The notes: generated by a model from the letters alone, not told the origin. 38,544 nt of DNA from Longimicrobiales bacterium (GCA_028278645.1 JANQDZ010000058.1:1-38544); one strand, 5' to 3'; counted from the first letter of the stretch, positions 9,457 through 37,356 are shown. Numbers and translations are program-made.

Positions 9457-9476
9457 GGTGGTGTCTCTGTGATCTG

Positions 9477-19050: not shown

Positions 19051-19124
19051 GCGCCCTTAGCTCAATTGGATAGAGTACCTGACTTCGGATCAGGTGGTTG
19101 GGGGTTCGAGTCCCTCAGGGCGCG
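19051..19124 (+). tRNA. tRNA-Arg (anticodon UCG)
   Basis: A full cloverleaf can be folded by eye: acceptor GCGCCCT/AGGGCGC with discriminator G at 19124; D stem GCTC/GAGT; anticodon stem CCTGA/TCAGG around loop CTTCGGA (anticodon TCG, 19084-19086... read as T-C-G at loop positions 34-36); five-base variable loop; T stem GGGGG/CCCTC with one G-T pair and loop TTCGAGT. CCA is not encoded. Its 3' half is the attachment site of the downstream island, which restores a complete tRNA end. Confidence 0.95.
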
Positions 19125-19125
19125 T
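19083..19125 (+). repeat. attL (direct repeat, tRNA 3' half)
   Basis: Starts at the first base of the anticodon loop and ends one base past the tRNA discriminator. It is identical over 43 bp to 37314-37356; after one mismatch, six further bases (GCGGAA) also agree. The anticodon stem CCTGA-7 bp-TCAGG makes a natural core site with a 7-bp overlap, as used by many tRNA-targeting integrases. Confidence 0.95.
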
Positions 19126-19186
19126 GGCGGAAGTTCTTTAATCACAAGGGCTTTCGCTTTTTCTATTGCATGCGGCCTCCCTGTCA

Positions 19187-19204: not shown

Positions 19205-19218
19205 AGGAGGTGCAGACA

Positions 19219-20310
19219 ATGCCCAAGCTCTACCAGCGAAATCAAGGCGGTAAGTCACGGTATTACGCTGACTTACGAGATATTGGCGGCGGACAGGTGG
19301 CCCTGAAGCCCCCAGGAAGCTCCAGGGCGACCTTTGACAAAGAAGAAGCCGCCCAACTGATGGCGGCGAAGATTCGAGAGCTTGGCGGCGTGACGGTAGC
19401 TCCCGGCACGCGGCTGGGGGAGTTTGTCGAGGAGTTTCTCGCCGTGAATCCTGGAGGCGTCACGGAGAGGTGGCTTGAGGAACAGGCCCGAAGACTTCGT
19501 CGGGCTGTCGAGTTCTTCGGGACGGATAGGGATCTCAAGACCATTCGCCCCAGGGATGTCCGCCAGTGGTTGGCGCAGTACGCCCACCTGTCCAACAGCA
19601 ACCAGCGTCATCACCTCCATGCCCTCTCAAGCCTGTATCGGTATGCGCAGGAGTTGGATCTGGTGCCGCTGGGCTACAACCCCGTAGCAGGCCTCTACCG
19701 GAAGCCGACTGCGGTCAAGAAGACACAGAGGACGGATGAGTTCTTTGAGATTCCCGACGCTGCGCGCTTTCTCCAGGCTGCGAAGGAACTGGATGATTAC
19801 CATGAAGTCATGGCCACCTACCTCCTCACCGGTGGTCGTAAGAGTGAGGTTTTGGGCCTTCTAGTGGGTGATGTCGACTTCGACGCAGGGCTCATCCGTA
19901 TCCGCCCCAACGAGCACCGAGGATTGAAGAGGCAGTGGAGTGAGCGCGTGGTTCCGTTATGGCCCCAGTTGAGAGAGATCCTCGAACCTTACGTGGAAGC
20001 CCTCGACGCGTCCCCGGACGACCTCCTCTTCCCCGGCCTCACTGGAGGGATGATCATCGACCTTCGCAAGCCGTTGAAGGAGATCGCCAAGAGGGCAGGT
20101 GTCGCTGTGCCCCGGCTCACCAAATTCCGCCACACTTACGCCACCGCACGCCTCCAAACCACCGACGGAGGCAAGGAGATTTCTGTCTGGCAGGTGGCGA
20201 AGGAATTAGGCCATCGTAGCGTGGCCAGAGTCGAGGACACCTACGGTCATCCGAGCCATTTTCGCCCTAGGGGGGAGGTGGTGGAGTACCGCGTTGATGC
20301 CGGCGGTTGA
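19219..20310 (+). CDS. Tyrosine recombinase / integrase
   Basis: This 363-residue integrase catalyses site-specific insertion at the adjacent tRNA gene. ATG 19219 follows AGGAGG with eight bases of spacing. Residues about 65-150 form the SAM-like core-binding domain, and 175-345 the catalytic domain: Arg207 in TGGRKSEVL, candidate Lys237 in the beta hairpin, Arg304-His305 in TKFRHTYATA, His332 in LGHRS and nucleophile Tyr342 in VEDTYGH. The usual first His of box II (HxxR) is replaced by Thr301, a variation present in some active recombinases. The N-terminal 60 residues probably form the arm-binding domain. It lies 95 bp inside the left end and reads into the island. Confidence 0.95.
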   Translation: MPKLYQRNQGGKSRYYADLRDIGGGQVALKPPGSSRATFDKEEAAQLMAAKIRELGGVTVAPGTRLGEFVEEFLAVNPGGVTERWLEEQARRLRRAVEFFGTDRDLKTIRPRDVRQWLAQYAHLSNSNQRHHLHALSSLYRYAQELDLVPLGYNPVAGLYRKPTAVKKTQRTDEFFEIPDAARFLQAAKELDDYHEVMATYLLTGGRKSEVLGLLVGDVDFDAGLIRIRPNEHRGLKRQWSERVVPLWPQLREILEPYVEALDASPDDLLFPGLTGGMIIDLRKPLKEIAKRAGVAVPRLTKFRHTYATARLQTTDGGKEISVWQVAKELGHRSVARVEDTYGHPSHFRPRGEVVEYRVDAGG

Positions 20311-22310: not shown

Positions 22311-22455
22311 CCAAGGGGTAGGTGGGATTCGTGTGCCTACTGCATTGGGCGTGTTTCCCTTCCTGGGCTTGAGCTTCCACACGCCCGCGAGCATTCTGTT
22401 TCGATGCAACTTCCCTGCCGTCAACGGAACCTTATGATCCCTCCAGGATTCAACT

Positions 22456-23055: not shown

Positions 23056-23076
23056 ACCACGTTTCAGACGGAGAAC

Positions 23077-23090
23077 GGGGGCAAACCCCC
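23077..23090 (+). terminator. Possible hairpin GGGGG-CAAA-CCCCC
   Basis: A perfect five-pair GC stem with a four-base loop lies 22 bases after the hypothetical gene. No T run follows, so it may pause or terminate transcription only partly, or be incidental. Confidence 0.3.
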
Positions 23091-23288
23091 AATGGTCTGC
23101 GATAATACCCTCCTTTGGACTTTTGCCGTTTCAGCTGCGTGCGATCATCGCCGTCCCCTCGTAGACTGGGGGAGAGGAGCGGACAACGGTCGAGAAGCCT
23201 GATCCGCGCCGCCACCATCTTCCGACGGCTGCGGTCTGGTGGACGTGGCGACAGTCTCCTGAATGCCCCAACCCACCCCGGAGAGGAT

Positions 23289-24002
23289 ATGACGCTTGAC
23301 TATGATGAGCGCCTGGAGCTGGATTCTGCCCTCAGGTTTGCTCTTGAGGAATGGGTACGGACAAGGGAGGAGTACTGGGCCGAGGGTGTAGCCGAGGATC
23401 ACATGTCCTCTGGCCAGCTTGCTGATGACCTCGCAGAAGCTGTGTTGGCAGGAATCGATGGCTTGATCCGACCGAGAGCTGCGAAGGGGATTTCGGCGAC
23501 CCTGCTCGGCAAGGGTTTCAAGTCCCTTTCAGATCTGTTCAAGATAAAGGGTCTGAGGGAGTTGGGGTTGGAGAGAATTGAAATAGAGCTGGCATCTAGA
23601 TATTCCATCTACCCACGATCCATGGCGGACCGGGCCTTGGATCTTGCTGAGTTCGTCCTTGAAGATCCCCCGTCACCAGCAGTTGCCAAGTACCTTGCGC
23701 GGCTCAGCAAGAGCTATGTCCTGGGTCTCTCAGCGGAGACCATAATCCTCTGCCGTTCCGTTCTCGAAAATGCCGTCTCGTCTTGGTTTGAGAGAAAGAA
23801 GCACGCGGCCCCTGAAACAATGCGGTCCAAGCTGCAATGGATGGTGTTGTGTGGCGCTCTAAGCTCGGAAGAGGAAAGCACCGCCCTATCCATCTGGCAC
23901 CGTGGGAATACGGCAGTTCACAAGGACCCTGGCGCCACCTCCCTGATCCTTGAGACCGTATCTGCAACGATGGAGATAGTCAGGTCGGTTGAGAGTGTCT
24001 GA
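23289..24002 (+). CDS. DUF4145/HEPN-like domain protein
   Basis: From ATG 23289 (preceded by GGAGAGG) the protein has 237 residues; the frame extends to 23115 but that part is Arg/Ser-rich and lacks a ribosome site. The C-terminal half has AETIILCRSVLENAVSSWFERK, then a linker helix, and SIWHRGNTAVHKDP, which is the LExL... RxxGNxxxH pattern of DUF4145 and related HEPN-fold domains. HEPN domains often act as RNases in toxin or defence proteins with an RxxxxH motif; here WHRGNTAVH fits R-x4-H (RGNTAVH gives R-x5-H, so the match is approximate). The N-terminal half is helical with no recognised motif. Function is unknown. Confidence 0.68.
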   Translation: MTLDYDERLELDSALRFALEEWVRTREEYWAEGVAEDHMSSGQLADDLAEAVLAGIDGLIRPRAAKGISATLLGKGFKSLSDLFKIKGLRELGLERIEIELASRYSIYPRSMADRALDLAEFVLEDPPSPAVAKYLARLSKSYVLGLSAETIILCRSVLENAVSSWFERKKHAAPETMRSKLQWMVLCGALSSEEESTALSIWHRGNTAVHKDPGATSLILETVSATMEIVRSVESV

Positions 24003-24054
24003 TCCCGTGCATCAGCTTGGCCCCAGGACCGTACCGAACTCCAATGACGAAGTT

Positions 24055-24084
24055 CGGGGGCTCCGACCGAAGCCGAAACCCCCG
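24055..24084. terminator. Imperfect hairpin between convergent genes
   Basis: CGGGGG and CCCCCG arms (24055-24060 and 24079-24084) can pair across an 18-base interior in the gap between the DUF4145-like gene and the convergent DUF1508 gene. No T run follows on either strand, so termination is only a possibility. Confidence 0.25.
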
Positions 24085-24107
24085 TGTGATCCTGGTCAGG
24101 ATCTCCG

Positions 24108-24275
24108 TCACTCGTAGATTGGCGCGTTAGCGGCTCCCTTTACGAGCGATACCGCAGCCAGGCAGTCCTGTTTATTCCGATAGGACTCGCCAGAGTCTGC
24201 GATGATCCGGTGATTGCCGGCTCGAAGGCGCCAACGCCATCCAAGGCCGACGTCCCGGTAGATCTGGAAGTACAT
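24108..24275 (-). CDS. DUF1508 (YegP-like) mini-protein
   Basis: From ATG 24275, preceded by AAGGAG, the product has 55 residues: YFQIYRD, WRWRLRAGNHRIIADSGESY and NKQDCLAAVSLVK. The order 'yfxxyxd..WRWRL...NxxxIAxSGExYxxKxxC' is that of the UPF0339/DUF1508 fold, a small beta-alpha unit seen in YegP. It is one repeat long, with no linker to a second. Role is unknown. An in-frame extension to 24344 lacks a ribosome-binding site and family similarity. Confidence 0.8.
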   Translation of the reverse strand: MYFQIYRDVGLGWRWRLRAGNHRIIADSGESYRNKQDCLAAVSLVKGAANAPIYE

Positions 24276-24401
24276 TTCCCGTCTCCTTATTTCAGACGGA
24301 CCCCTTGCAACCGGCGGCTCTTGGGTGCAACCTTCTTTTACCAAGCCCGGGCCTGTCCCGGCCTCCCTTTGGGTGGTCCGACTGCCCGTGGGAGATTGCG
24401 T

Positions 24402-24439
24402 CCGATGCCATTCGCCGTGGCATCGGGCGTATTTTTTTT
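24402..24439 (+). terminator. Strong intrinsic terminator
   Basis: CCGATGCCA/TGGCATCGG forms a nine-pair stem with a seven-base loop (24402-24426), then GCGTA and eight Ts (24432-24439). It reads on the plus strand. No plus-strand gene ends within about 400 bases upstream. The T run also encodes the stop of the convergent minus-strand gene at 24438. Confidence 0.8.
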
Positions 24440-25010
24440 ATGCCCCGTCGGGTGACCAGCTCATCCGTGCCAGGACCCCTGGGTGAGCAGCTTTCTCTTT
24501 GCTATGCCACTCGAACTCCACTTCCACCGGGATATTCAGCGTTTGGGCTAACCTCAGGACGCTTTCCCATGCGAGGCGCGCCTCCACGCCTTGAATGGAA
24601 ATCCCAGCCTCAGGCAAAAACACGAAACCCCTTTCCGTGAACTCGTCCACCCTGACGTTGCTCTTCGTCACCTTCATCACGGCGTCAACCGATTCGAGTC
24701 GGCGTAGGGCTCGGACATGCATCAGGTGAACTAGGCCGTTCCATTTTGGCCTAGGGACAGGCTCCCCGTCGATCCGGGCCTTCAGGATTCTCGTGTGGGT
24801 GAGGTCCTCCGGGTGTTCGGGATCGATCATCATGGCCTGCCTTGGACCCTTGGACTGGAGAGGTCCGGTTTCCTCCGGCTTGGCAGAATCACCTGACTGA
24901 ATAGCAGCGTCCACCAGGCGCCTGATCACATCTTCAGGGGTGTCCACGAAAGGTTCAGCCAGCTCTTGGAGCTTTCTGAAGGTTGGGCTTGAGATCTCAA
25001 CAGTGGGCAT
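24438..25010 (-). CDS. Hypothetical protein with SeqA/ribbon-helix-helix-like N-terminus
   Basis: The 190-residue product starts at ATG 25010. Residues 1-35 (VEISSPTFRKLQELAEPFVDTPEDVIRRLV) resemble the short N-terminal dimerisation motif of SeqA and ribbon-helix-helix proteins. The C-terminal region (about 70-185) has HTRILKARIDGEPVPRPKWNGL, ISIQGVEARLAWESVLRLA and VEFEWHSKEKAAHPGVLARM, which reads as a conserved globular domain that I associate with proteins near restriction genes, but I cannot name a family. It is divergent from the DUF262-HNH gene and could be its partner or regulator. No catalytic motif is evident. Confidence 0.6.
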   Translation of the reverse strand: MPTVEISSPTFRKLQELAEPFVDTPEDVIRRLVDAAIQSGDSAKPEETGPLQSKGPRQAMMIDPEHPEDLTHTRILKARIDGEPVPRPKWNGLVHLMHVRALRRLESVDAVMKVTKSNVRVDEFTERGFVFLPEAGISIQGVEARLAWESVLRLAQTLNIPVEVEFEWHSKEKAAHPGVLARMSWSPDGA

Positions 25011-25052
25011 GGCTCAAACTCCACGAAGTCGTCAAAAACATCGACATGTAGA

Positions 25053-25082
25053 ATAATCGCACGTACGCCACAGCTGTGTCAA
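25053..25082 (-). promoter_or_regulatory. Candidate sigma-70 promoter for the minus-strand hypothetical gene
   Basis: On the minus strand TTGACA (25082-25077) and GATTAT (25058-25053) are separated by 18 bases, about 40 bases before the gene start at 25010. The palindrome CACAGCTGTG (25069-25078) overlaps the -35 and could be an operator. Confidence 0.4.
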
Positions 25083-25274
25083 CCCCGTATCGTATGGGAT
25101 TTATGTACAGTAGTGAGTTCGGCCTTCGTTCGGTTTTCCTGGTTCGCTCAAGACGCCCTCCTTCCTCACCGGTGCGGCGGAGTTGGGGATCGCCTAGTTT
25201 CTTGCTCGCAGGGAATCCACAGGAACGGGGCCAGGAGTGGAAGCTGTCAACAGCAAACGGAGGGAGAGGGAACA

Positions 25275-26699
25275 ATGTTCGATCCCGAGCCGGCTTATGA
25301 CATCAAACCCAAAGCGATTCCAATTCGGGATTTCCACGACTACCGCGAAGAGTTCGTGACTCGCCCGCCGTACCAGCGGAAGAACGTCTGGAGCCGGAGG
25401 AAGAAACAAAGCCTCTTGGACAGCCTATTCCGACGGTTCTATGTGCCGAAGGTTGTCCTTCGGGAGGTTCGCCTTTCAGAAAAGGCCACTAGGCTTGAGG
25501 TGATCGATGGCCAACAGCGAATCACCGCCGCTCAGGAATTTCTGTCCGATCAGCTTCCGCTTCCCAAAAGCCTGGCCTCTTTAGATCCGAAACTCCCCGG
25601 CAAACGCTTTTCTAATCTCCCGGCAGATCTCCGCCGGTTCGTGGACCGAGAGATTGTCTACGATGCTGACCTAATTAAACGCATCGATGACCCCTTGGAC
25701 CCGGGGCACCAGAGGATAGCGACCGAGATATTCTGGAGACTCCAGCAGGGCGAAAGCTTAAACACCATGGAGGTGGCGCACGCCCGCCTGGCCAGCCTCG
25801 TACGGAACTTCCTGGTCAAATACGCCGACGATCAAAGATTCGATTTCGAGGCTTATCAACCGGTTGACGAGAACCCGGACAAGCACCCCTTCTTCGCAAT
25901 CGTTGATCGCCCCAACGAACGCATGCAACATCTGGCACTTTTGGCCCGTCTTCTCCTTCTGGAGCGAAAAGGCGGACCTGCCGAGATTCGCGATAAGGAT
26001 GTCGTGGAGTTTATCGACGAGGCACAGGTGGATGGGGGGATCGGGAACGAGTCGTACGAGGACCAGGAAAACGCCCGTGGCGTTTTGGGCAACCTCCAGA
26101 TGCTCACCGACCTCTTCTCAGATGATCCCATCATCAAAGGTGGTGGCACCGTAAAGGAACTCCGGATCGAATACTTCATCGTCTCCGTCTACCTCCTCCT
26201 TCATCATATCCGAAAATGGTATGTCTTCGGGGAAGATGAGAAAGGACTCCTCAAGAAGTTCATACTCAGTTTTCATGAACGGTGGAGGAGAAGGGCCGAG
26301 TCAGACAGTGACGTGCTCATCTTCTCAGACAATCGACAGCAGTCCGCGGCAGAGATCGCAACGAGGGATCGTATTCTCAGGCAGCTCTTCTTTGAGTTTG
26401 CTGAGCAGGAAGGCCAACCTCTGAAGGACAAGGATAAGAAACGGGCCTTCAATGAGGCAGAGAGGATTGCTATCTACCGGAGGGATGAAGGGCTTTGCCA
26501 GGAGTGTCTCGCAGAAGAAAAACCAGAGAAAGAATGCGAGGTGGGGTGGACGGAGTTCGAGGCCGATCACGTCGTTCCCCACTCGCGGGGCGGAAAAACT
26601 GTGGTTGAGAACGGGCAGGTGCTTTGCCGGGTCCATAACCGTCGTAAGGGGGCCACCCTCGCGGAGAATCCCCGGGCCGGATCGCCCGAGGCGGACTGA
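25275..26699 (+). CDS. DUF262-HNH endonuclease (GmrSD-like)
   Basis: From ATG 25275 (preceded by GGAGAGG) the protein has 474 residues. PPYQRKNVWSRRKKQSLLDSLF and VIDGQQRITA (77-86) form the DUF262 signature; DUF262 resembles ParB/sulfiredoxin-type nucleotidases and is the N-terminal GmrS part of type IV systems that cut modified DNA. The C-terminus has an HNH nuclease: Cys408-x2-Cys411, DH at 431-432 in FEADHVVPHSRGG, Cys451 and HNRRKG at 454-459. Having both parts in one chain suits a type IV-like restriction enzyme or an NTP-driven DNA nuclease. No methylase is next to it; the neighbour on the left is the divergent unknown gene. All key motifs are intact. Confidence 0.87.
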   Translation: MFDPEPAYDIKPKAIPIRDFHDYREEFVTRPPYQRKNVWSRRKKQSLLDSLFRRFYVPKVVLREVRLSEKATRLEVIDGQQRITAAQEFLSDQLPLPKSLASLDPKLPGKRFSNLPADLRRFVDREIVYDADLIKRIDDPLDPGHQRIATEIFWRLQQGESLNTMEVAHARLASLVRNFLVKYADDQRFDFEAYQPVDENPDKHPFFAIVDRPNERMQHLALLARLLLLERKGGPAEIRDKDVVEFIDEAQVDGGIGNESYEDQENARGVLGNLQMLTDLFSDDPIIKGGGTVKELRIEYFIVSVYLLLHHIRKWYVFGEDEKGLLKKFILSFHERWRRRAESDSDVLIFSDNRQQSAAEIATRDRILRQLFFEFAEQEGQPLKDKDKKRAFNEAERIAIYRRDEGLCQECLAEEKPEKECEVGWTEFEADHVVPHSRGGKTVVENGQVLCRVHNRRKGATLAENPRAGSPEAD

Positions 26700-26739
26700 T
26701 TCAGACCCGGCGGGTGAACGCTCTGAAGGGTTTGAGGGC

Positions 26740-27435
26740 TTATTCTGGCTCTCCTCCACCCCCTTGGTGCTTTTCTTCGGCTCGTTGCTCTAGGAGGCGG
26801 CGGCCAGGGTGTTCATGGGCGAATGTAGTATCTGTCCTCACCGCTCTTATCAATGGAAAGACTGCAGCAACCAGGCTATAAAAAAAGGCTGTCGCCTCCT
26901 GCTGCCGCAGGTTTCCGAGCTCGACGAACACGTCAGGTTCCTCAAACGGTGCTGTCGCCATCTTCTCCAAGACTCGTTCAAGTCTCTTCAGCGGTCTCCC
27001 CCTCTTGACCGGGTCCCGGTTGTGCCAGGCCTGTGTATCGTCTCGGTATTCTGGGAATGCATAGAGCGAAAACATGAGGGAGTTCAGCACGCTCCTGACT
27101 TCAGGCCCGAAAGGATCGAAAGGGCTCTTGGGCCTTTCGCGTGGTTCATCGAAGTCCTCTTCCCTCTCGACGGGACCGGCTGACGGTTTCTGTGCCCCGA
27201 ATACCATGTGCTCGATGTTCACACGGCGGGGAAAAGCCCTGGCCAAACCTTCGAGGAAAATGACCGGAGGCTGGGTTTTGGCCTCGTAGTCACTCACGGT
27301 GCTCAGGCCGAACCTCCTCCTACCCTTCAGCTGCTCGTTGACGGCCTTTTGGACCTCTCCGAGAGACAACCCCATTTCCGCACGCCATTTGCAGAACCGA
27401 TCAGCGGTGGTTTCCGGTTTTCCGGCAGAAACCAT
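26740..27435 (-). CDS. XRE-type helix-turn-helix regulator
   Basis: From ATG 27435, preceded by GGGAGGAAACA, the product has 231 residues. Residues about 9-70 read as an XRE-like HTH (ADRFCKWRAEMGLSLGEVQKAV, then LSTVSDYEAKTQPPV), the Cro/C1 type. The C-terminal 150 residues have no recognised domain and include a helix-rich stretch (FFYSLVAAVFPLIRAV). It is divergent from the ATPase-xis operon across 348 bp that contain inverted repeats, so it is a good candidate for the island repressor. It is convergent with the DUF262-HNH gene. Confidence 0.75.
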   Translation of the reverse strand: MVSAGKPETTADRFCKWRAEMGLSLGEVQKAVNEQLKGRRRFGLSTVSDYEAKTQPPVIFLEGLARAFPRRVNIEHMVFGAQKPSAGPVEREEDFDEPRERPKSPFDPFGPEVRSVLNSLMFSLYAFPEYRDDTQAWHNRDPVKRGRPLKRLERVLEKMATAPFEEPDVFVELGNLRQQEATAFFYSLVAAVFPLIRAVRTDTTFAHEHPGRRLLEQRAEEKHQGGGGEPE

Positions 27436-27514
27436 TGTTTCCTCCCAGGAACTCAATCCCTTCCGGGAACGCGAAACCTCGTTGCCCCACTGCCTCTAGG
27501 ATGCCTATTTTCGA

Positions 27515-27636
27515 GATATCGGAACACTAATCCGGAATATCGTGACTCCCAAGCGTCCGAGCAAGTCCCGGCCTTTACCGGTGATGTCGGACAAACCCCA
27601 CGGTTGGAGACCGATTGATTCGGACTGGTTCCGAAT
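27515..27636. promoter_or_regulatory. Divergent control region with candidate operators
   Basis: The 348 bp between the regulator and the ATPase gene hold no gene. ATTCGGA-CTGGT-TCCGAAT at 27618-27636 is a perfect 7-bp inverted repeat; an imperfect relative, GATATCGG...CCGGAATATC, lies at 27515-27541. Both share CGGA...TCCG cores. An XRE regulator is encoded next door, so these are possible operators; promoters were not resolved by eye. Confidence 0.45.
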
Positions 27637-27783
27637 GAGTGGTGCCCCTCTTGTTTGCCCCGATTCCTTTGAGCTGAAGTGGATCGGGTCGCTCCCTTCG
27701 GTATGAACGGGGCTCGTGCGCCTATGGAGGGGTGACGCCAAGTGTTCGATTCGACCTCACAACCATGAGAAAACGAGGGACCA

Positions 27784-29208
27784 ATGAATGCTCCAAAGGC
27801 TTTTGACCAAAGGATCGATGTTGTTGAACTAAAGGACGGAACCCTGGCATGGGTTGTAGCCACTGCCAGTGGCATTGAAATCGTCTCTGAATGGGAGGGG
27901 GAAATCCCCTGGCACCGGAAGTACCTACCTTGGGACTCAATCCCGAGGGCGGAAGATGTTCATAGGGCGATGGAGTCGGGAGCTGTCTGCCCGTTCGAGG
28001 AACTTGTTGAGTACCTCCTAGAACGAGTCTTTCTACCTTCGCCAGAGAGGATTTGGGCTATCCTTCTGGCTTCCTGGGTGATCGGCACCTACTTCCTCGA
28101 TGATTTCGACCATTTTCCTCTGATCTTGATCGAGGGTCTACCGGAGAGGGGGAAAACTCGACTGGGAAAGGCCATGATCTTTCCGTCTCTGAGGGGGTGC
28201 TACATGCCGCATACAACACCGGCGGTCCTCTTCCGGTATCGGGCCTACCACCGGGCGGCTTTGCTTCTGGATTACGAAGACCTTCCAAGAAGCCTACGCA
28301 CTGACGGACTGAAGGACCTGATCCTCAACAGTTTTGAACGAGATGGGAAGGTTCCGCGAGTCATCGCCAGTGATGCAGCTCCCGAGAAGCAGATCCAGAG
28401 TTTCAACACATATGGTCCCACAGTCCTCGTATCGAACCGCTCGGTAAGGCCCCGGGACCCCCTGTATTCCCGCTGCATTCGTGTCCAGATGCCAGAGTGC
28501 GGAGGCGAACGGGTTTTTGCCCCGGTTAGGCCGGAACAAGTCACTCTGCTTCGGGCGAAACTCGTGACTTTCTCAGCCCGCATTAGATCTGAAGGGAACT
28601 CCCTGCCCCAGTTCCGAAACCCATTCCGAGGGCGACTGGCCGACATATCTCAGCCGATCTTCCGGGTCCTTCAGGCCGTTCATCCCGCCTCGATTGGGGA
28701 GTTGGAAGAGCTATTCGGGCAGATTGATGGGGGTCGCCGGCAAGACGCTGCCTCCACCCCGGAGGGCCGAGTGGGGTTGGAGGTTGTCAAGCTCCGAGAT
28801 CAGTTCTCGACGGAAGGGCTCACGATTCGAGATCTGGAAGGGAGTGTCAACCGAAACCTGACTCGACACGATCCCGAATACCTCGATAGTCAGCAGGTTG
28901 GCTATATCACTAGAGATCTGGGTCTTGAGAAGGGGAGGGGATTGGGGGGCAGGACGATCTTGAGGTGGCCCGGAGACGAAGTGATAGAACAGTTGGCCCT
29001 GCGGTTCGGTGTGGGTGGCCCATCTCGGAAGCCCTCAAACCCCTCAGAACCTTCAGTTTCTCCCCGGCGGCAATCCGATTCGGACGTGGAGCCTTCGCAA
29101 ACCTCCGCCGAGTCTGCCGGGGCCGAAGGAAAAGCCGTGGGTGATCCTGAGCTGAGGGGTGAGGATGTTGAGCTTTGCCGGGTGGAGAAGGGGGTGGTGA
29201 AGAAATGA
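27784..29208 (+). CDS. P-loop ATPase of the mobile-element replication/primase-associated type
   Basis: The 474-residue product has Walker A GLPERGKT (118-125), a Walker B-like LLLDYED (160-166), a sensor-like VSNRS (Asn218) and Arg230 in PLYSRCIRVQMP, the order seen in AAA+ helicase-like proteins of integrative elements and phage satellites. The N-terminal part contains no primase motif that I see. The C-terminal 60 residues are Ser/Pro/Glu-rich and disordered. The gene overlaps the excisionase-like gene by ATGA, so it belongs to the lifecycle operon, but an ATPase subunit of the methyltransferase-helicase system cannot be excluded. GAGGG precedes the ATG. Confidence 0.75.
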   Translation: MNAPKAFDQRIDVVELKDGTLAWVVATASGIEIVSEWEGEIPWHRKYLPWDSIPRAEDVHRAMESGAVCPFEELVEYLLERVFLPSPERIWAILLASWVIGTYFLDDFDHFPLILIEGLPERGKTRLGKAMIFPSLRGCYMPHTTPAVLFRYRAYHRAALLLDYEDLPRSLRTDGLKDLILNSFERDGKVPRVIASDAAPEKQIQSFNTYGPTVLVSNRSVRPRDPLYSRCIRVQMPECGGERVFAPVRPEQVTLLRAKLVTFSARIRSEGNSLPQFRNPFRGRLADISQPIFRVLQAVHPASIGELEELFGQIDGGRRQDAASTPEGRVGLEVVKLRDQFSTEGLTIRDLEGSVNRNLTRHDPEYLDSQQVGYITRDLGLEKGRGLGGRTILRWPGDEVIEQLALRFGVGGPSRKPSNPSEPSVSPRRQSDSDVEPSQTSAESAGAEGKAVGDPELRGEDVELCRVEKGVVKK

Positions 29209-29495
29209 GGCTATGTGAAAGACTGCGTGGAATGATCAAAGGCTATCCGCCGGGATCACTGGTTTCCCTTCCAATCGAGGTCATCGAGGGATGGTTGGCA
29301 GATGAGGGGATCAGCTTTGAGCCCGATTTGACGGTTTCGGAGGTGGCGGAGCGCTTTTCTCGCTCGCCTTGCACTGTCCGGGCTTGGATTAGGGCCGGTC
29401 TCTTGAGGGCCTACAAGTTTCGGGGCCGGGAATACCGTATCCCCTCCTCTGCTTTGGAGGAATTCCAGCGGCGTGAAGCACTCCGTAGGAACTGA
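29205..29495 (+). CDS. Excisionase-family (HTH_17) DNA-binding protein
   Basis: The 96-residue product starts at ATG 29205 inside the stop of the ATPase gene (ATGA). Residues about 40-92 (LTVSEVAERFSRSPCTVRAWIRAGLLRAYKFRGREYRIPSSALEEF) are the winged-helix MerR-like HTH_17 fold of excisionases and related DNA-binding proteins. Excisionases steer the integrase towards excision. It is far from int (about 9 kb) but within the same element. Confidence 0.85.
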   Translation: MRLCERLRGMIKGYPPGSLVSLPIEVIEGWLADEGISFEPDLTVSEVAERFSRSPCTVRAWIRAGLLRAYKFRGREYRIPSSALEEFQRREALRRN

Positions 29496-29590
29496 AAAGT
29501 GAAGCTCTAGGCTGGTGTTCATACCGAGGTAATTAGCGTGCCACGGTGAGTGAGTCGCTGTTACATATCCTGAGGAAGGTAAGTCCTTAT

Positions 29591-29619
29591 TTGACAATAA
29601 TTTGAGAGGAAGGGATAAT
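29591..29619 (+). promoter_or_regulatory. Consensus-like sigma-70 promoter for the methyltransferase-helicase operon
   Basis: TTGACA (29591-29596) and GATAAT (29614-29619) are separated by exactly 17 bases. Transcription would begin near 29626, giving a leader of about 70 nt before the intrinsic terminator at 29667-29695. Confidence 0.75.
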
Positions 29620-29666
29620 CGATTCGAGGTGTTGGCTTTGAGCCGCGAAGGTGAGTAGGATTGGCG

Positions 29667-29695
29667 AAAAACCGGGTGAAAATGCCCGGTTTTTT
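29667..29695 (+). terminator. Intrinsic terminator in the leader of the methyltransferase gene
   Basis: AAAAACCGGG and CCCGGTTTTT form a ten-pair stem (29667-29676 and 29685-29694) with the loop TGAAAATG; six Ts end at 29695. It lies 57 bases before the methyltransferase ATG and downstream of a strong promoter, the arrangement of an attenuator or of a small RNA gene. Confidence 0.78.
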
Positions 29696-29752
29696 GTCTA
29701 TGTGGGAGCAGGTTACGCCACGTTCCAAGGCCAAGAAGCGTGAAGGGTCCCG

Positions 29753-32700
29753 ATGCCGGGGACGGTGATTCCTGCAGATGAGGTTGACCGGCACAAAGGA
29801 CTGAGTGGGGTGAACACGTTTACGCCCTGGCGTCGGACCACTAGACACTCTTACTCTTTCCTCCCCCCCCCGCGAACCGTCGGACTGAGGGAGAAGAGAG
29901 TGTTTCTGGCCAATCGAGAAGCACGTGCAGTCCAACTGGATGTCCAAGGTAAATCGGTCTCTGGCGAACTATTCCTCGGCCAGGGTGCTCTCGGCCTAGA
30001 GGTGGTGGCCTTCACCGCCGCCCATAGGCCGTCCTTTTCAAGTTTGCGGTCGGCGTTTGAGGCGAGAGCCGGTCGGAGGGCTGCCCCCGTCTTGATTGCG
30101 GTCCTTTGGGGAGATGACCGAGCGGCGCTTTTTGGCCCGACCTCCCAGAACCCGATGGGCGTCCTAGAGATCCCTCGGACTCAGGCCAGTAGGATCTGTG
30201 ACGTATCGCTGGAAGCTCCGGATCGCCATTCCGCCATTCGATTCCTGAACCGTGCCATACCGCAGCTTGAGGCCCCGATACCTGGGCTACGGAACAGCGG
30301 TTTGTTCGCCTTGCAAGAGTTGAGGGCCGGGGTCCCCCTCCGGGAGGACTGGGACGAAGCGCGCCGGCGCTCAATCAACGTTTACTCACTTCGAGGGCGG
30401 GACCTCATACACGGCCTAGGGTTCCAGACGGAGCATTTGCCCGGGCCGGCTACGATCCTCCTCGCAAAGGGGGCCAAGACAGCGATTGCAGTCTTTCTTG
30501 AACGGCCTGAAGAGATTGATACCGCGAACCAAGCGTTCGATGGCGTATCCCCGGTGTCCTTCGCATTGGCCCGGGCGGACCGTGAGCGTCTTGACTATGT
30601 GGTCGTGTCCGCCGGCTCCACCCTGAGGGTTTATCCGGCCAAGCCGGGCGTTGGGACGGGAAGGCGAGGCCGAACCGAGACCTATGTAGAGGTGAACCAT
30701 GACCTTCTAGGTGAGGACCATAGTGGGTACCTCTGGCTTCTTTTTGGCGCGGATGCTCTCTCTGACGGCGGCACCTTCCAGGAGATCCTGAATCGGAGCG
30801 AGGAGTTCGCCGTTGACCTGGGGGCTCGTCTCAGAGACCGAGTGTACGTCGAGGTCGTACCGCAGCTGGCCCAGGCTGTTTCCGAGGCAAGGGAACTAAA
30901 GGCTCCCTCCCAACAGGAGCTGAAGTCCACCTATCAGGCGGCTCTTGAGGTCCTCTTCCGACTCCTCTTCGTAGCCTATGCAGAGGACAAGGAGCTTCTT
31001 CCACTGCACCAGTCGGCCGCCTACCGAGACCACTCGCTCAAGAGAATCGCGCAGCGGCTGGTGGAAGCCAAGCGGGCCGAGAAGGCGTTCGGCTCCGAAG
31101 GCTTCTATTGGCGAGAGATCTCGCTCATCTGGACCGCTGTGGACAAAGGAAATCCGGAATGGGGGGTACCCGCTTACAACGGTGGGTTGTTCTCCAGCGA
31201 CCCTGACACTTCTGCAACTGGTGCCCTTCTAGCGGACCTCAGCCTTCCGGATTCGGCTTTCGTGCCGGCACTCACTGCACTTCTTGTGGATCGGTCAGAG
31301 GAGGGAGTGGAAGGCCCTGTGGACTTCCGATCTCTCAGTGTGCGGGAGTTTGGAACGATTTACGAAGGTTTGCTTGAGAGTGAGCTGTCGGTGGCTGAGC
31401 AGGATCTTTCCGTAGATCCCGAGTCAGGCGCCTACTTCCCTGCCGACCTAGGTACTGAAGTGGCCGTACCAGCCGGGGAGGTGTACCTGCACAACGCTGC
31501 TGGAGCCAGAAAAGCAACCGGGTCCTACTTCACTAAGGCTTTCGCAGTCGACCATCTCCTTGATCGCGCTCTTGAGCCGGCACTAGACGACCATCTCGGT
31601 CAGCTGGATGAGCTGGACACCCGGGAGGCTGGCAAGCGTTTCTTCGAGTTCAGAGTAGCCGATATTGCTATGGGGTCTGGGCACTTTCTGGTGGCCGCCG
31701 TGGACCGGATCGAGAGACGGCTGTCCAACTACCTAGCGTCGAGGAACCTGCCGGACGTTCACGATGAGCTCTTTCGGCTCCGGCAGGTTGCAGTGGAGGC
31801 CTTGGGAGATGAGTGGGCTGGTGACCCTATCGAAGATTCGCAACTCCTCCGAAGGCAGATTGCCCGCCGCTGCATCTTCGGGGTTGACCTCAATGAAACT
31901 GCGGTCGAGTTGGCCCGGCTTTCGATTTGGATTCATACCTTCGTTCCGGGCCTCCCACTCTCCCTCTTGGACTACAGCTTAGTAAGAGGCAACTCCCTGG
32001 TGGGGGTAGCCACTTTCGACGAGGCTGCGGACCTAATTGTGTCCGACGAAGCAGATCTCTTTGCTTTTTCCGCGACGGAGCGGTTGAGTAGCCTCCAGGA
32101 ACCCCTTAATCGATTGGCCGGCCTGACCGATGCGAACGATGCGGAGATAAGAGAGGCCCGGGAGATCTACGAACAGACCAGAGAAGCAATCCGTGCCGAG
32201 AATGACTTCCTCACGGTCCTTACGGCATCCAGAATCGACTCCGAAATCCAGGCCGCCGTGGACCAGGGGCAGATAGCAACCCGTCTACGTCAACAGGGTG
32301 ACGTCTTCAGTGATAGGTTGATCAGACGGGCTAATGATCTCCTTGAGGGAACGAACGTGCTCCACTTTCCTGTTGCCTTCCCTCATGTCTTCCTAGGAAA
32401 ACGCGGGGGGTTCGACGTGATCCTGGGTAATCCCCCATGGGAAAAGGCCCATGTCGAGGAACACGAGTATTGGTGTCGGCACGTTCCGGGCTTCCGAGGA
32501 TTGACCCAGAGGGAGAGGGCCGCACGTTATCCGATGCTTCGCGAAGAACGACCGGACCTGGCGCGCCAGTTCGAAGCCGAGCGGAGGGCAACTGATACGG
32601 TGCGTGCTCTTCTCCTGGCGGGCCGGTACCCAGGTATGGGGAGTGGACATCCGGACCTTTACAAGGCGTTCACTTGGCGGTTTTGGGATTTGGTGACCCC

Positions 32701-33922
32701 AGACGGCGGTCGAATTGGAGTGGTCCTACCGAGGTCAGCGATGGCAGCAAAGGGTTCCACCGAATTTCGGCGCCTAGTCTTCGAACGTGCTGAGACCGTT
32801 GACGTGACGACGCTCCTCAATAGTGGTCGCTGGGTTTTCGATATGGAACCCCGATACACAGTGGGACTGATAGCACTGAAAAAGACGGCCATTTCGGGTG
32901 ACGCAATTGTCAGTCTGAGTGGTCCGTTCTCCAACCTCTCTCAGTATCGTGCTGGTTTGGTCAGAGAGCCGCCACGGTTTTACGGATCGGAAGTGAGACA
33001 GTGGAGCGACTCAGTCACTCTACCACTCCTCCCAGGCAAAGAGTCTGTCGATGTTCTCTCCCAGTTGGGCAAGGCCCCTAGGCTGGACATGGACGAAAAG
33101 AGCAGCTGGCGGGTGAGACCGATACAGGGAGATCTGAACGCCACGACCGGAGCGCCCTTGTTGGATTTCGAATCAGGGGACTGCCCGCCCGGATATTGGC
33201 CCGTATTCAAAGGTGAATCCTTCGACCTCTGGAATCCAGATACTGGATCGTACTACGCATGGGCCGACCCGGAGGTCGTCCTTCCAGAACTCCAGAATAG
33301 ACGCGAGCAGGCGAGTAGCAGGTCGGCCTTCTCAGAGTTCAGTGACGAATGGCGGTCAGACCCGGGGACCCTTCCGTGCCTCAAGCCGAGGATTGCCTTC
33401 AGAGACATCTCACGCGCAACGGACACCAGGACCGTACGCGCCGCACTGGTTCCCGGTGAGGTCATCATCACGCACCAAGCACCTTTCTTCGTCTGGCCGA
33501 GAGGGACCGCGAAGGAAGAAGCCTTTCTTCTGGGAGTGTTGAGTTCCATTCCTCTGGATTGGTTTGCACGACGCTTTGTCGAGACGCATCTCACCTTCTT
33601 CGTCATCAATCCATTTCCGATCCCTCGACCAGTGGCTGGCGATCCCTTGCGGGAAAAGGTGGTTCAGCTCGCTGGGCGACTTGCCGCTTCGGACGAGCGG
33701 TTTTCCGGGTGGGCGGACCTGGTGGAGGTAGGCTGGGGTCCCCTTCAGCCCGATGAGAAGGAGTATATGATCAACGAGCTTGACGCTGCCGTGGCTCACC
33801 TTTTCGGTCTCTCGGAGGTCCAACTCACCCACATCTTCGAGACCTTCCATGAAGGTTGGGATTACGAAGAGAGACTAACGGCGACCCTTGAGCACTTCCA
33901 CTCTCTTCGGAGGCTCCGATGA
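29753..33922 (+). CDS. Class I (Eco57I-like) DNA adenine methyltransferase, large, defence-type
   Basis: The 1389-residue protein has an N-terminal region (about 1-560) without a recognised motif and a gamma-type N6-adenine methyltransferase core: KATGSYFTK motif X region (587-594), motif I VADIAMGSGHF (635-645), VDLNETAVELARLSIWI (711-727) and catalytic GNPPW (892-896). The C-terminal 300 residues should include the target-recognition domain. The Eco57I/PglX-type architecture is used by type IIG enzymes and by methylases of BREX and DISARM. I see no nuclease motif here, so cutting would come from the partner. ATG 29753 follows AAGGG; the first 50 residues are less certain. Its stop overlaps the helicase start by ATGA. 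Confidence 0.85.
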   Translation: MPGTVIPADEVDRHKGLSGVNTFTPWRRTTRHSYSFLPPPRTVGLREKRVFLANREARAVQLDVQGKSVSGELFLGQGALGLEVVAFTAAHRPSFSSLRSAFEARAGRRAAPVLIAVLWGDDRAALFGPTSQNPMGVLEIPRTQASRICDVSLEAPDRHSAIRFLNRAIPQLEAPIPGLRNSGLFALQELRAGVPLREDWDEARRRSINVYSLRGRDLIHGLGFQTEHLPGPATILLAKGAKTAIAVFLERPEEIDTANQAFDGVSPVSFALARADRERLDYVVVSAGSTLRVYPAKPGVGTGRRGRTETYVEVNHDLLGEDHSGYLWLLFGADALSDGGTFQEILNRSEEFAVDLGARLRDRVYVEVVPQLAQAVSEARELKAPSQQELKSTYQAALEVLFRLLFVAYAEDKELLPLHQSAAYRDHSLKRIAQRLVEAKRAEKAFGSEGFYWREISLIWTAVDKGNPEWGVPAYNGGLFSSDPDTSATGALLADLSLPDSAFVPALTALLVDRSEEGVEGPVDFRSLSVREFGTIYEGLLESELSVAEQDLSVDPESGAYFPADLGTEVAVPAGEVYLHNAAGARKATGSYFTKAFAVDHLLDRALEPALDDHLGQLDELDTREAGKRFFEFRVADIAMGSGHFLVAAVDRIERRLSNYLASRNLPDVHDELFRLRQVAVEALGDEWAGDPIEDSQLLRRQIARRCIFGVDLNETAVELARLSIWIHTFVPGLPLSLLDYSLVRGNSLVGVATFDEAADLIVSDEADLFAFSATERLSSLQEPLNRLAGLTDANDAEIREAREIYEQTREAIRAENDFLTVLTASRIDSEIQAAVDQGQIATRLRQQGDVFSDRLIRRANDLLEGTNVLHFPVAFPHVFLGKRGGFDVILGNPPWEKAHVEEHEYWCRHVPGFRGLTQRERAARYPMLREERPDLARQFEAERRATDTVRALLLAGRYPGMGSGHPDLYKAFTWRFWDLVTPDGGRIGVVLPRSAMAAKGSTEFRRLVFERAETVDVTTLLNSGRWVFDMEPRYTVGLIALKKTAISGDAIVSLSGPFSNLSQYRAGLVREPPRFYGSEVRQWSDSVTLPLLPGKESVDVLSQLGKAPRLDMDEKSSWRVRPIQGDLNATTGAPLLDFESGDCPPGYWPVFKGESFDLWNPDTGSYYAWADPEVVLPELQNRREQASSRSAFSEFSDEWRSDPGTLPCLKPRIAFRDISRATDTRTVRAALVPGEVIITHQAPFFVWPRGTAKEEAFLLGVLSSIPLDWFARRFVETHLTFFVINPFPIPRPVAGDPLREKVVQLAGRLAASDERFSGWADLVEVGWGPLQPDEKEYMINELDAAVAHLFGLSEVQLTHIFETFHEGWDYEERLTATLEHFHSLRRLR

Positions 33923-36900
33923 GCCAACCGGAATTCATCGATAACCTGGATGGGAACACCCTTGAGGTGGCCCTTAAAGGTCGCCTTGAGCACCTCCTGG
34001 CCACGCTTCGAGATCCTGTCCGCCTCTCCGTGGCTACGGGATATTTCAACCCCGGGGGTTTTGGGCGACTCGCAGGGGTCTTGCGGCAGGCAGGAGGCAT
34101 CCGTTTGCTATTGGGGGCCGAACCGCTGCCCCCGGCGACCCTTCCGGAACGCCGGCTGGGGGAACCGAGGGGAGAGCGTTTCGAGGCCAGGCTAATCAGG
34201 CAGGTTTTGGAGCAAGGTGAGGAGAGGCTTCGTCGAGACCGAGACCGAATCCCGTTCGACCGTTCTTCGCATCAGGCAATTCTCGACCTTTTGGAGTTCC
34301 TAGAGTCCGGGAAGATTGAGGTCCGGCGTTACGAGGACCGCTTCCTTCACGGCAAGGCGTATCTCTTCTCGGATGGCAATGGAGTGATCGCCGGTTCGTC
34401 GAACTTCACCACCGCTGGGCTTACCACGAACCTGGAGCTCAACCTAGGTCAGTACCAACCGTCGGTTGTCGGTCAGGTTGAGGCATGGTTCGAGAAACTG
34501 TGGGACCAGGGCTCACCCTTCGACCTGGCCTCCATTTACGAAGCACGCTTCGGGGAGTACCACCCGTACCTCATCTATCTCCGCGTCCTCTGGGAGCGAT
34601 ACAGGCAAGAGCTGGCCGAGGAGGAAGAGGCGACCGGGCGGATTCAACTCACTCGTTTTCAATCCGATGGCGTTTTTCGGGCGAAGAGGATTCTTGATCG
34701 CTTTAATGGAGTCTTGGTGGCAGACAGTGTTGGGCTCGGAAAGAGCTTCATTGCCGGGGATCTCTTCACCGAGGTGATTGAGAAGAACCGACAGCGGGCC
34801 CTCCTCGTGGCACCAGCGCAGCTGAGAGACGGAAGCTGGGATCGATTCAAGGCAAGGTACCAGGTCGGCGTGGAAGTGGTATCCTACGAACAGCTGGCCA
34901 ATGACGTTCAGCTCGGCGGCGACGGCCACTCACTGAGAGCGGGACTGGACGAGTACTCCCTAATCGTCATTGACGAAGCACACGCGTTCAGGAATCCGGA
35001 TACAAAACGAGCACGAGCACTTCGGCACCTACTCCGAGGAGATCCTCCGAAGAAGGTGGTGATGCTCACGGCTACACCCGTGAACAACAGTCTCTGGGAC
35101 CTGTACGATCTCTTAGCCTACTTCGTGGGTCATGATGCGGCATTTGCCGACGCCGGAATCCCATCGCTCAAGAAGCGGTTTCAGGAAGCTGCTGGGGAAG
35201 ACCCCTTCTCCCTGAAGCCCGACGTCTTATTTGAGATTCTGGACGCGACGACGGTCCGGCGTACTCGCCATTTTGTGCAACGTTACTATCCTCGTGATCA
35301 CTTTCGGCTGCCCGATGGCACCGAGGTCCGGATAAAATTCCCGGAGCCGCATGTCTCCTCCAAAGCCTACGATCTGGACGACATTCTTCCCGGTTTCTTC
35401 GAGGAGTTCGCCGAGATTCTGGCGCCGGAAGAAGGGGAGCCCCTCCTAACCCTGGCAAGGTACTGGCCCAGCCGTTATCGACGGGACGGAGGAATTGAGG
35501 CGAGGGAAGCTGCTCTGGTGGGCCTCCTCCGTTCAGGGTTACTGAAGCGGTTCGAGTCTTCCGCCCAGGCCTTTGCCAATACGACGTCGAGGATGGTTCG
35601 AGCTCATGAGTTCTTCCTACAGGCTTTGGAGGAGGGAATCGTCCCATCACCCGAAGCGTTTGTACAGATTCATGAGACTGATTCAGACGAAGAGTGGGAA
35701 GAGCTACTGGATGGAGGCGAGAGCACCGAGGAACTGGAACTGGATGTAGACCGGCTCAAAGCCGATGTGCAGAACGATCTGACTCTCTTGGAGGGTCTTC
35801 GTGACCGCGCAGCTTCAGTGACCCCCCTGGATGATCCCAAACTCCGGCTACTCCGTGAACAGCTCGTTGCCGTCGCCGAATACTCAGAGAAGCACGCTAC
35901 GGGTGAACAGAGTCAACGCAATCTCCGGAAAGTGCTGATATTCAGCTACTTCGCTGACACGGTTGATTGGATAGCAGAGTACTTGGAAGAAATCCTCGCA
36001 ACGGACCGGCGGCTTGCTCAATACCGTGGGCGGCTGGCGGTCGTGAGCGGCACCGATTCGCACCGTGGCGTCTCTCGCCGAGAGGCGGTTTTTGGCTTCG
36101 TGCCGGAATCCTCGGAAGCTCCTCCAGGTTTGGATGAAGACCGGTTCGATATCTTGGTGACTACAGACGTCCTTGCTGAGGGCATGAACCTTCAGCAGTG
36201 CGGGAGGATAATCAACTATGATCTCCCGTGGAATCCGATGCGGTTGGTTCAACGGCACGGTCGGATCGACAGAATTGGGAGCCCACACCAGAAGGTTATT
36301 ATCACTTGTGTCTTTCCGGACAAGCAGTTGGAATCTCTGCTCGCCCTGGAGCTGAGGATCAGACGGAAACTCGCACAGGCCGCCGCATCCATCGGTCTTG
36401 ATCAGGTCGTGATCCCAGGCATAGAAAAGACGGAACAGGTTTTTTCCGAAACCAGATCGGAGATCGAAGCGCTAAGGAGAGGAGAAGCTGGCATCTTCCA
36501 AATGGGGGGAGAGGGCGTCCATGCTCACAGCGGGGAAGAATACAGGCAAGAACTGCGGCATGGACTCCAGCGTTGGCAGAACGAGATCAAGGATCTCCCC
36601 TGGGGCGTGGGCTCAGGGATCGTCTCCGGGGAAAGGGCGGGCCACTTCTTCTGTGCACGGGTGTTCGACCGAGTTTTCCTTCGGTTCGTTCCCTCCGACT
36701 TGGCGGAAGAAGTTGAAAGGGATTCACTTACCTGCCTCGGCATTATCGCTTGCGAGGAGGGTACGCAACGGGTCCTGCCCTCTGAAGCCGCTGAAGCAGC
36801 TTTCGACGCATGGGAACGTGCTCGTCGGGATATCTTCGAGGAGTGGGAACGGGGAACTGATCCGGCGAACCTTCATCCCGATGTTCGGCCCCTATTCCGT

Positions 36901-37191
36901 GCAGCGGCTGAACACGTTCGTCAATATCCGGCGGAAGGCATGACTCTTGAGGAACTGGATCGCCTGGCTGAGGCTCTCGAAGCTCCTTGGGGCATCCGAA
37001 TCGAGAAGGTTCTCAGGAAGGCGTTTAAGCCTGAAGAGGCGAGGGGAGGGGCGTCCACGAAATCGATTGCGAACGTCGTCAAGGAGCTGGGCCTTCAACC
37101 CTGGAGGGCTCCTGAGCCCCTCCCCCCAATTGAGGTTGACGAAGTTGATCTGGTAGTCTGGATGGCAGTCCAGGCCAAAGAGAATCCCTGA
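33919..37191 (+). CDS. PLD-nuclease / SNF2-like helicase fusion
   Basis: The 1090-residue protein has an N-terminal phospholipase D-like nuclease domain (residues about 1-200; HGKAYLFSDGNGVIAGSSNF at 144-163 is the HxK motif and GS-N element) and a superfamily 2 helicase: DSVGLGKS (269-276) Walker A, IDEAH (351-355), TATPVNN (384-390), VTTDVLAEGMNLQQC and QRHGRIDRIG at the C-terminal motor. A linker of about 300 residues lies between motor halves, as in SNF2/RapA-type proteins. It likely translocates on DNA and cuts or remodels it. Coupled to the methyltransferase by ATGA. It is the last gene of the island. Confidence 0.88.
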   Translation: MSQPEFIDNLDGNTLEVALKGRLEHLLATLRDPVRLSVATGYFNPGGFGRLAGVLRQAGGIRLLLGAEPLPPATLPERRLGEPRGERFEARLIRQVLEQGEERLRRDRDRIPFDRSSHQAILDLLEFLESGKIEVRRYEDRFLHGKAYLFSDGNGVIAGSSNFTTAGLTTNLELNLGQYQPSVVGQVEAWFEKLWDQGSPFDLASIYEARFGEYHPYLIYLRVLWERYRQELAEEEEATGRIQLTRFQSDGVFRAKRILDRFNGVLVADSVGLGKSFIAGDLFTEVIEKNRQRALLVAPAQLRDGSWDRFKARYQVGVEVVSYEQLANDVQLGGDGHSLRAGLDEYSLIVIDEAHAFRNPDTKRARALRHLLRGDPPKKVVMLTATPVNNSLWDLYDLLAYFVGHDAAFADAGIPSLKKRFQEAAGEDPFSLKPDVLFEILDATTVRRTRHFVQRYYPRDHFRLPDGTEVRIKFPEPHVSSKAYDLDDILPGFFEEFAEILAPEEGEPLLTLARYWPSRYRRDGGIEAREAALVGLLRSGLLKRFESSAQAFANTTSRMVRAHEFFLQALEEGIVPSPEAFVQIHETDSDEEWEELLDGGESTEELELDVDRLKADVQNDLTLLEGLRDRAASVTPLDDPKLRLLREQLVAVAEYSEKHATGEQSQRNLRKVLIFSYFADTVDWIAEYLEEILATDRRLAQYRGRLAVVSGTDSHRGVSRREAVFGFVPESSEAPPGLDEDRFDILVTTDVLAEGMNLQQCGRIINYDLPWNPMRLVQRHGRIDRIGSPHQKVIITCVFPDKQLESLLALELRIRRKLAQAAASIGLDQVVIPGIEKTEQVFSETRSEIEALRRGEAGIFQMGGEGVHAHSGEEYRQELRHGLQRWQNEIKDLPWGVGSGIVSGERAGHFFCARVFDRVFLRFVPSDLAEEVERDSLTCLGIIACEEGTQRVLPSEAAEAAFDAWERARRDIFEEWERGTDPANLHPDVRPLFRAAAEHVRQYPAEGMTLEELDRLAEALEAPWGIRIEKVLRKAFKPEEARGGASTKSIANVVKELGLQPWRAPEPLPPIEVDEVDLVVWMAVQAKENP

Positions 37192-37219
37192 GGCGGCGTC
37201 TGAGAAACAGTCACAATCA

Positions 37220-37313
37220 CAGTAACAGACACCCCTGATCGGTGGTCACTGCTGGTGAGCGAAGAGCTCAGAAAACGAACGTGTATGCCTCGCTATGACC
37301 CCCCTGAACCTTC
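37220..37313. other. Right end of the island, no gene
   Basis: Between the helicase stop and attR I find no coding potential. CAGTAAC at 37220-37226 echoes the repeats near int. CCTGA at 37303-37307 lies a short distance before the attR core, mimicking the tRNA anticodon stem. Confidence 0.4.
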
Positions 37314-37356
37314 CTTCGGATCAGGTGGTTGGGGGTTCGAGTCCCTCAGGGCGCGT
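37314..37356 (+). repeat. attR (direct repeat of the tRNA-Arg 3' half)
   Basis: It is identical over 43 bp to the tRNA copy at 19083-19125. Only the anticodon loop, T arm and 3' acceptor strand are present, so it cannot fold as a tRNA. Chromosomal sequence resumes after it. Confidence 0.95.

Follow-up and report, generated by a model that had tools for sequence, protein, structure and literature searches.

A two-gene locus coding for a type IIG-like methyltransferase and a PLD-SNF2 protein: a candidate compact restriction-type defence system

Towards the end of a 38,544-nucleotide stretch of DNA from a Longimicrobiales bacterium (the window), a gene for an adenine methyltransferase runs directly into a gene for a PLD nuclease fused to an SNF2 motor. 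The locus raises the question of whether the two genes form a defence system of their own or belong to one already described. The analysis suggests that the pair is a candidate compact, unnamed restriction-type immune system against foreign DNA, and we consider it likely that it acts as a two-gene, ATP-dependent restriction-modification-type defence system composed of a type IIG-like methyltransferase and a PLD-SNF2 effector. The best reading of its kinship is that of a minimal relative of the DISARM, BREX and HMA cores.

Coupling and distribution of the gene pair

A preliminary description of the window reported two genes overlapping by ATGA, with motif I and NPPW in the first and a PLD nuclease motif, fused to a motor with Walker A, DEAH and C-terminal helicase motifs, in the second. 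The same open reading frames (ORFs) joined by the same ATGA overlap were found (Table 1). Motif I was located as D-I-A-M-G-S-G-H-F, Pfam detected Eco57I in the first gene, and PLDc_2, SNF2-rel_dom and Helicase_C were detected in the second, placing the PLD domain and the SNF2 motor in one chain. Because homologues of the methyltransferase begin about 48 residues after the ATG at 29753 and AGGGAG precedes the GTG at 29900, this GTG is the likelier start, which would probably make the protein about 1340 aa long.

Table 1. Positions of the gene pair, its domains and the carrier island in the window
Feature	Position	Strand	Remarks
Methyltransferase ORF	29753..33922	+	1389 aa from ATG 29753; probable true start GTG 29900; N-terminal ~560 aa, Eco57I-type N6-adenine methyltransferase core, C-terminal target-recognition region
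N-terminal domain, residues ~46-202	29888..30358	+	No clear assignment; weak structural matches only
Degenerate nuclease-like domain (putative), residues ~203-343	30359..30781	+	Predicted fold like DrdV/BpuSI type IIG nuclease domains
N6-adenine methyltransferase core	31571..32878	+	Motif I D637-F645; motif IV NPPW 893-896
C-terminal target-recognition region (putative), residues ~1046-1389	32888..33919	+	Exchanged among close relatives; sometimes separate tandem ORFs
PLD-SNF2 gene	33919..37191	+	1090 aa; PLD, SNF2 motor, C-terminal region
PLD/HKD nuclease domain	Residues 1-~212 of the 33919..37191 product	+	H144, K146, N162, E173
SNF2 motor	Residues ~235-870 of the 33919..37191 product	+	Walker A K275, DEAH 352-355
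C-terminal region of the PLD-SNF2 protein	Residues ~870-1090		
attL, 43-bp repeat	19083..19125	+	At tRNA-Arg 3' end (tRNA 19051-19124); left island boundary
attR, exact second copy of the 43-bp repeat	37314..37356	+	Right island boundary; empty site in congener
Tyrosine integrase	19210..20310	+	Left island end; carrier, not system component
Small HTH_17 excisionase-like protein	29175..29495	+	Island gene (carrier)

One genome per species was scanned, which gave 80 helicase loci; the close helicases, with the plasmid loci and the window included, numbered 62. A methyltransferase of about 1330 aa lay upstream of the helicase and on the same strand in 56 of the 57 loci with enough upstream sequence (55 paired by script and locus L052 on inspection), and the paired genes mostly overlapped or abutted. 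Among the remaining six of the 62, five helicases began less than 500 bases from a contig end and one (L042) was partial. In 395 genomes of the same phylum as the window, 25 places with a close helicase were found: a methyltransferase match on the same strand lay no more than 3 kb upstream in 22 of them and at 7-9 kb in two more, and one place was on a broken contig. Methyltransferases scoring above 500 bits without a helicase in this sample seemed mostly to be contig-end cases, as judged by eye from the tables. The prospect, raised in the preliminary description, that homologues of the two genes would rarely neighbour each other was thus false, and their pairing is not due to chance.

Six plasmid relatives from haloarchaea and actinobacteria encoded helicases 37-49% identical to that of the window, each with the methyltransferase directly upstream as an unannotated 'hypothetical protein' of 1317-1375 aa (37-47% identity). 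The pair spanned at least eight phyla, including Gemmatimonadota, Rhodothermota, Pseudomonadota, Chloroflexota, Planctomycetota, Actinomycetota, Acidobacteriota and the haloarchaea. Phage records contained partial, distant matches to the methyltransferase only. No paper on this two-gene combination was found in the open-access literature, an absence that is weak evidence.

In a FastTree helicase tree, which has some long branches and in which the PLD columns may have aided grouping, the PLD-SNF2 helicases formed one group of 84 rows apart from the DrmD and HMA helicases, and within it the 57 rows of the window-type pair formed one clade with a local support of 99. Sister to this clade was a second PLD-SNF2 group of 21 (L070-L090; tier 2). 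Like the window pair, the tier 2 pair places a PLD-SNF2 protein beside a methyltransferase of the Eco57I class labelled 'type IIG', and the two genes frequently overlap, but the gene order is reversed and the methyltransferase has an N-terminus that looks unrelated, together with a TaqI_C specificity domain. Locus L076 (9983-16542) is an example, with the helicase first and the 'type IIG' methyltransferase after it.

The methyltransferase and its exchangeable C-terminal region

The catalytic motifs of the methyltransferase were intact. NPPW was invariant in 42 of 42 methyltransferases, as were the motif I positions checked, except for G643 (G or A). Over its full length, the protein matched the PADLOC model REase_MTase_IIG (PDLC03620, 'Type IIG restriction enzyme') at 989 bits. 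The possibility that profiles would place both proteins firmly in a described system was only half true: the methyltransferase received this generic label, while the helicase had no good model, the best being C3a139 (HKD+Snf2).

From 28 homologues, AlphaFold2 modelled residues 46-606 with confidence (mean pLDDT 89). Foldseek returned nothing convincing for this N-terminal model, and sequence searches of the PDB with the whole methyltransferase and with its N-terminal profile gave no meaningful match. In a second look at the model with VIA, the top three rows were type IIG enzymes. The matches to DrdV (Z 6.8, large rmsd across several domains) and BpuSI (Z 6.5, 118 residues, 4.2 Å) aligned at the N-terminal nuclease domains of these enzymes, with Z values that are modest, fall below the level excluding a common arrangement, and are not proof of fold by themselves. 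The match is in keeping with the family and with where the region sits in the chain, and the modelled region resembles a type IIG nuclease-like fold.

The strand expected to hold (D/E)xK, mapped by secondary structure, was A-I-A-V-F-L (A244-L249). None of the 42 homologues had D, E or K at any of these six positions, and the strand was wholly hydrophobic in nearly all of them. We infer that the nuclease domain of the methyltransferase has been inactivated, although it may have an unorthodox active site. Because the strand is without an acidic residue or lysine, DNA is probably cleaved by the PLD domain of the partner, and with an inactivated nuclease domain the type IIG label of PADLOC is likely wrong about the self-sufficiency of the methyltransferase. 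The full-length match and the type IIG-like N-terminal fold would also suit a self-sufficient type IIG enzyme, with the PLD-SNF2 protein encoded by a separate accessory defence gene; this is very unlikely given the absence of D, E and K from the strand in 42/42 homologues and the rarity with which the two genes occur apart.

The C-terminal region of the methyltransferase was exchanged among close relatives while the helicase stayed constant. Between loci L040 and L041 of Microbacterium, the latter from M. enclense, identity was 95% in the methyltransferase N-terminus, 76% in the core and 96% in the helicase, but 28% in the C-terminal region; the corresponding values were 68%, 57%, 74% and 20% for L005 and L033, and 68%, 51%, 69% and 19% for L003 and L004, where L033 is from Geodermatophilus saharensis and L003 from Halorubrum lacusprofundi. 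Identity of the C-terminal region was below 45% in 10 of the 43 pairs compared; exchange was frequent, not universal. A swapped C-terminus beside a constant helicase carries the signature of a target-recognition domain, and the exchange is consistent with sequence-specific methylation. Since it occurs independently of the helicase, sequence specificity would reside in the methyltransferase, and the motor-nuclease would be indifferent to the site. With an exchangeable recognition domain, one motor-nuclease may therefore serve many specificities.

A conserved third gene in the gap that some loci show between methyltransferase and helicase was considered and rejected. The ORFs in these gaps were mostly unrelated, and related ones, where found, were extra copies of the recognition domain or lineage-specific. 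Some loci encode the recognition region in an ORF of its own, or in two arranged in tandem. In L021, two such ORFs (8345-9187 and 9106-10005) precede the helicase, and a tandem duplication of the separate recognition ORF ahead of the helicase was also found at G136:C112:714-2359. Separate tandem ORFs of this kind look like an emerging specificity subunit.

The PLD-SNF2 protein and a proposed mechanism

Among 32 diverse helicases, H144, K146, S160, N162, E173, K275 and D352-E353 were invariant, and H355 was nearly so. Each chain contained a single HKD motif, from which a dimeric active enzyme would be expected, as in BfiI and SauUSI (PMC7913695). The nearest fold matches of the motor were SNF2 remodellers and RapA-like proteins, and those of the protein included SauUSI, a solved PLD-plus-SF2 restriction enzyme that translocates and shreds DNA (PMC7913695).

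We propose that the methyltransferase has a type IIG-like ancestor, that its C-terminal domain reads a specific DNA sequence, and that adenine methylation by the enzyme marks self; its presumably inactive nuclease domain probably serves as a DNA-contact or docking domain. Unmarked sites would recruit or license the PLD-SNF2 protein, which would probably join the methyltransferase there. Powered by ATP, the SNF2 motor would travel along double-stranded DNA, and a single active site, built from the paired PLD domains of two protomers, would cut the invading DNA. An encounter between protomers may lead to the cut, a scheme put forward for SauUSI (PMC7913695) and similar in spirit to that of type I enzymes. 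The preliminary description had read the pair as a compact modification/restriction system, a reading that gains support from the conserved pairing and the intact catalytic motifs. From its domains and their conservation, the pair is predicted to form a complex, mark self, translocate, cleave DNA and defend against phage.

The system could also exclude foreign DNA in a BREX-like manner without cutting, the methyltransferase marking self and the PLD-SNF2 protein blocking replication or remodelling protein-DNA complexes, with a PLD domain that only binds. The fold of the motor, closest to remodellers and RapA-like proteins, would suit such a scheme, and cores of helicase and methyltransferase are likewise found in BREX type 3, ARMADA and DISARM (PMC12458937, PMC12839542). 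However, the complete PLD set of H, K, N and E is retained without exception across a divergent family, which would be difficult to account for if the domain did not cut, and exclusion of this kind is unlikely. Besides DNA cleavage, as favoured in the restriction-modification reading, the PLD domain could act on RNA or be regulatory.

Relation to described systems and the carrier island

No described system was found to hold just this methyltransferase and PLD-SNF2 pair. The absence of drmA/drmB, pglZ and brxC, reported in the preliminary description, was borne out, and no HMA, DISARM or BREX core gene was present at the window locus. Neither drmA nor drmB was found in the window, DUF1998/MZB (PF09369) was absent from the whole host genome, and no drm genes were annotated beside the plasmid homologues. 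No pglZ or brxC gene was recognised on the island; one PglZ-domain gene was located elsewhere in the host genome (G000:C41).

The next-best models for the pair were DrmMI (213 bits) and DrmD, which reached only 160 bits where its curated cut-off is 610. Class 1 DISARM (DrmD-DrmMI) resembles the pair in combining an SNF2-family helicase with a large adenine methyltransferase of similar layout, but the window pair has no drmA, drmB or drmC, its PLD domain is fused to the motor, and the methyltransferase comes first. On the window-family profile, DrmD proteins of the same phylum scored 83-118 bits and had no PLD motif, whereas full-length core-clade helicases scored above 1200 bits. Membership in DISARM was rejected on the DrmD score, the absence of MZB and a helicase clade separate from true DrmD.

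Hma, a helicase-methylase-ATPase triplet, has been reclassified among the DUF499-centred BR systems (PMC8565338, PMC12839542), of which Type-2 BR has a Swi2/Snf2 helicase with an HKD nuclease at its N-terminus and, in addition, DUF499 and DUF3780 (PMC12839542). An N6-methyltransferase and a helicase are common to HMA/BR and the window pair, and the HKD-Snf2 fusion is shared with Type-2 BR, but the pair has neither the DUF499 ATPase nor DUF3780. DUF499 (PF04465) was absent from the host genome and had no match in 35 of 50 related genomes; DUF3780 had no match among the island ORFs scanned with Pfam. HMA had been named as the nearest comparison, and this did not hold, because the helicases of sampled HMA (DUF499) loci scored only about 60-120 bits, most without a PLD motif, and fell in another clade. 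With DUF499 absent and the helicase distant, HMA membership was rejected.

ABC-3C systems have an ABC ATPase and a middle component beside the effector. Pfam recognised no ABC ATPase on the island, where some ORFs were unassigned, and the C3a139 match of the helicase was 195 bits. The second-best DrmMI and DrmD scores, C3a139 as the best helicase model and the HKD-Snf2 fusion of Type-2 BR (PMC12839542) might indicate that the pair belongs to DISARM, HMA (DUF499-centred BR) or ABC-3C as a split or degenerate form that has lost its other genes. This is highly improbable: the two-gene form is stable over many phyla, DUF499 and DUF1998 (MZB) are missing from the host genome, and the helicases of true DISARM and sampled HMA form another group, mostly without the PLD motif; the methyltransferase-first order also argues against it.

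Like the type IIG enzymes DrdV and BpuSI (PDLC03620), the window methyltransferase combines a nuclease-fold N-terminus, a methyltransferase core and a recognition C-terminus in a single chain, but its nuclease motif is lost, and an obligate-looking partner brings a motor and a different nuclease. A PLD nuclease driven by an SF2 ATPase is shared with SauUSI (type IV) and with CglI/NgoAVII (PMC7913695, PMC5737866, PMC4267653). SauUSI, however, recognises methylated DNA by its own domain, whereas recognition in the window pair most likely lies in the methyltransferase; in CglI/NgoAVII, different subunits carry the PLD and the ATPase, and recognition is by a B3 domain in the R subunit. Type I restriction-modification likewise joins a modification/recognition component to an ATP-dependent translocating nuclease, but in the window pair M and S are in one chain, the nuclease is PLD and not PD-(D/E)XK, and the motor is of SNF2 type. 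Related helicase-methylase cores are found in ARMADA (PMC12458937), and HKD occurs with an SF2 helicase in CxC-ABC systems (PMC10853773).

The broader proposal, for and against which we see the balance as even, is that the pair represents an unnamed ATP-dependent restriction-modification type of bacteria and archaea, in which a type IIG-like enzyme lost its nuclease and cleavage passed to the PLD-SNF2 protein, giving the helicase-methylase core of DISARM, BREX, ARMADA and HMA in its smallest, two-gene form and a source of false 'stand-alone type IIG' calls. Current tools split the pair, counting the methylase as a complete type IIG enzyme and missing the motor or labelling it weakly as DrmD or ABC-3C; if the two genes were recognised as a pair, inventories of archaeal and bacterial defence systems would be corrected. 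With recognition, marking, motor and nuclease assigned to two genes, it would offer the simplest setting for studying helicase-methylase cores, whereas DISARM, BREX and HMA need more genes.

The pair is located at the end of an 18.2-kb tRNA-Arg island (19083-37356), with attR adjoining the end of the PLD-SNF2 gene. The island also contains the tyrosine integrase, a DUF5131/TcmP pair, a GmrSD-HNH gene and the excisionase-like HTH gene, and its GC content was 57.3% versus 61.1% on the left side. The empty site was found in the congener L175 (G445), where tRNA-Arg was joined straight to the right flank (83% identity). This congener also lacked an ADOP permease gene that in the window stands between tRNA-Arg and the left flank (16616-19042), a separate indel beside the island.

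Restriction-modification pairs are able to stabilise their carrier by post-segregational killing, and the location of the pair on plasmids and at one end of an integrative island would fit a role in epigenetic or mobile-element upkeep, such as stabilising the island in this way, and not in phage defence. As upkeep is compatible with a restriction-modification mechanism, not opposed to it, and motor-nuclease fusions are otherwise typical of restriction, this alternative to defence is hardly probable at all. In favour of a defence role, defence-type genes lay near the pair both on the island and in Geodermatophilus, and PADLOC matches were scattered among 96 neighbouring proteins. Against it, the neighbours were not overwhelmingly defence genes.

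On the island itself, the adjacent genes at 20632-22310 code for a DUF5131 protein (PADLOC PDC-M41B, 301 bits) and its three-Cys-motif partner TcmP (PDC-M41A), a second candidate defence pair. The DUF262/GmrSD_N protein with a C-terminal HNH (25113-26699) is likely the product of a type IV-like or modification-dependent restriction gene. A 474-aa protein with a Walker-A-like GLPERGKT (27784-29208), the upstream P-loop ATPase once suggested as a third component, was rejected in that role: it had no Pfam match and, because no homologue was found near any other copy of the pair, it is probably outside the system, an island gene unrelated to the pair. In Geodermatophilus saharensis (L103:2449-20000), a complete HMA operon was found about 6 kb upstream of the pair, and the two are therefore separate systems.
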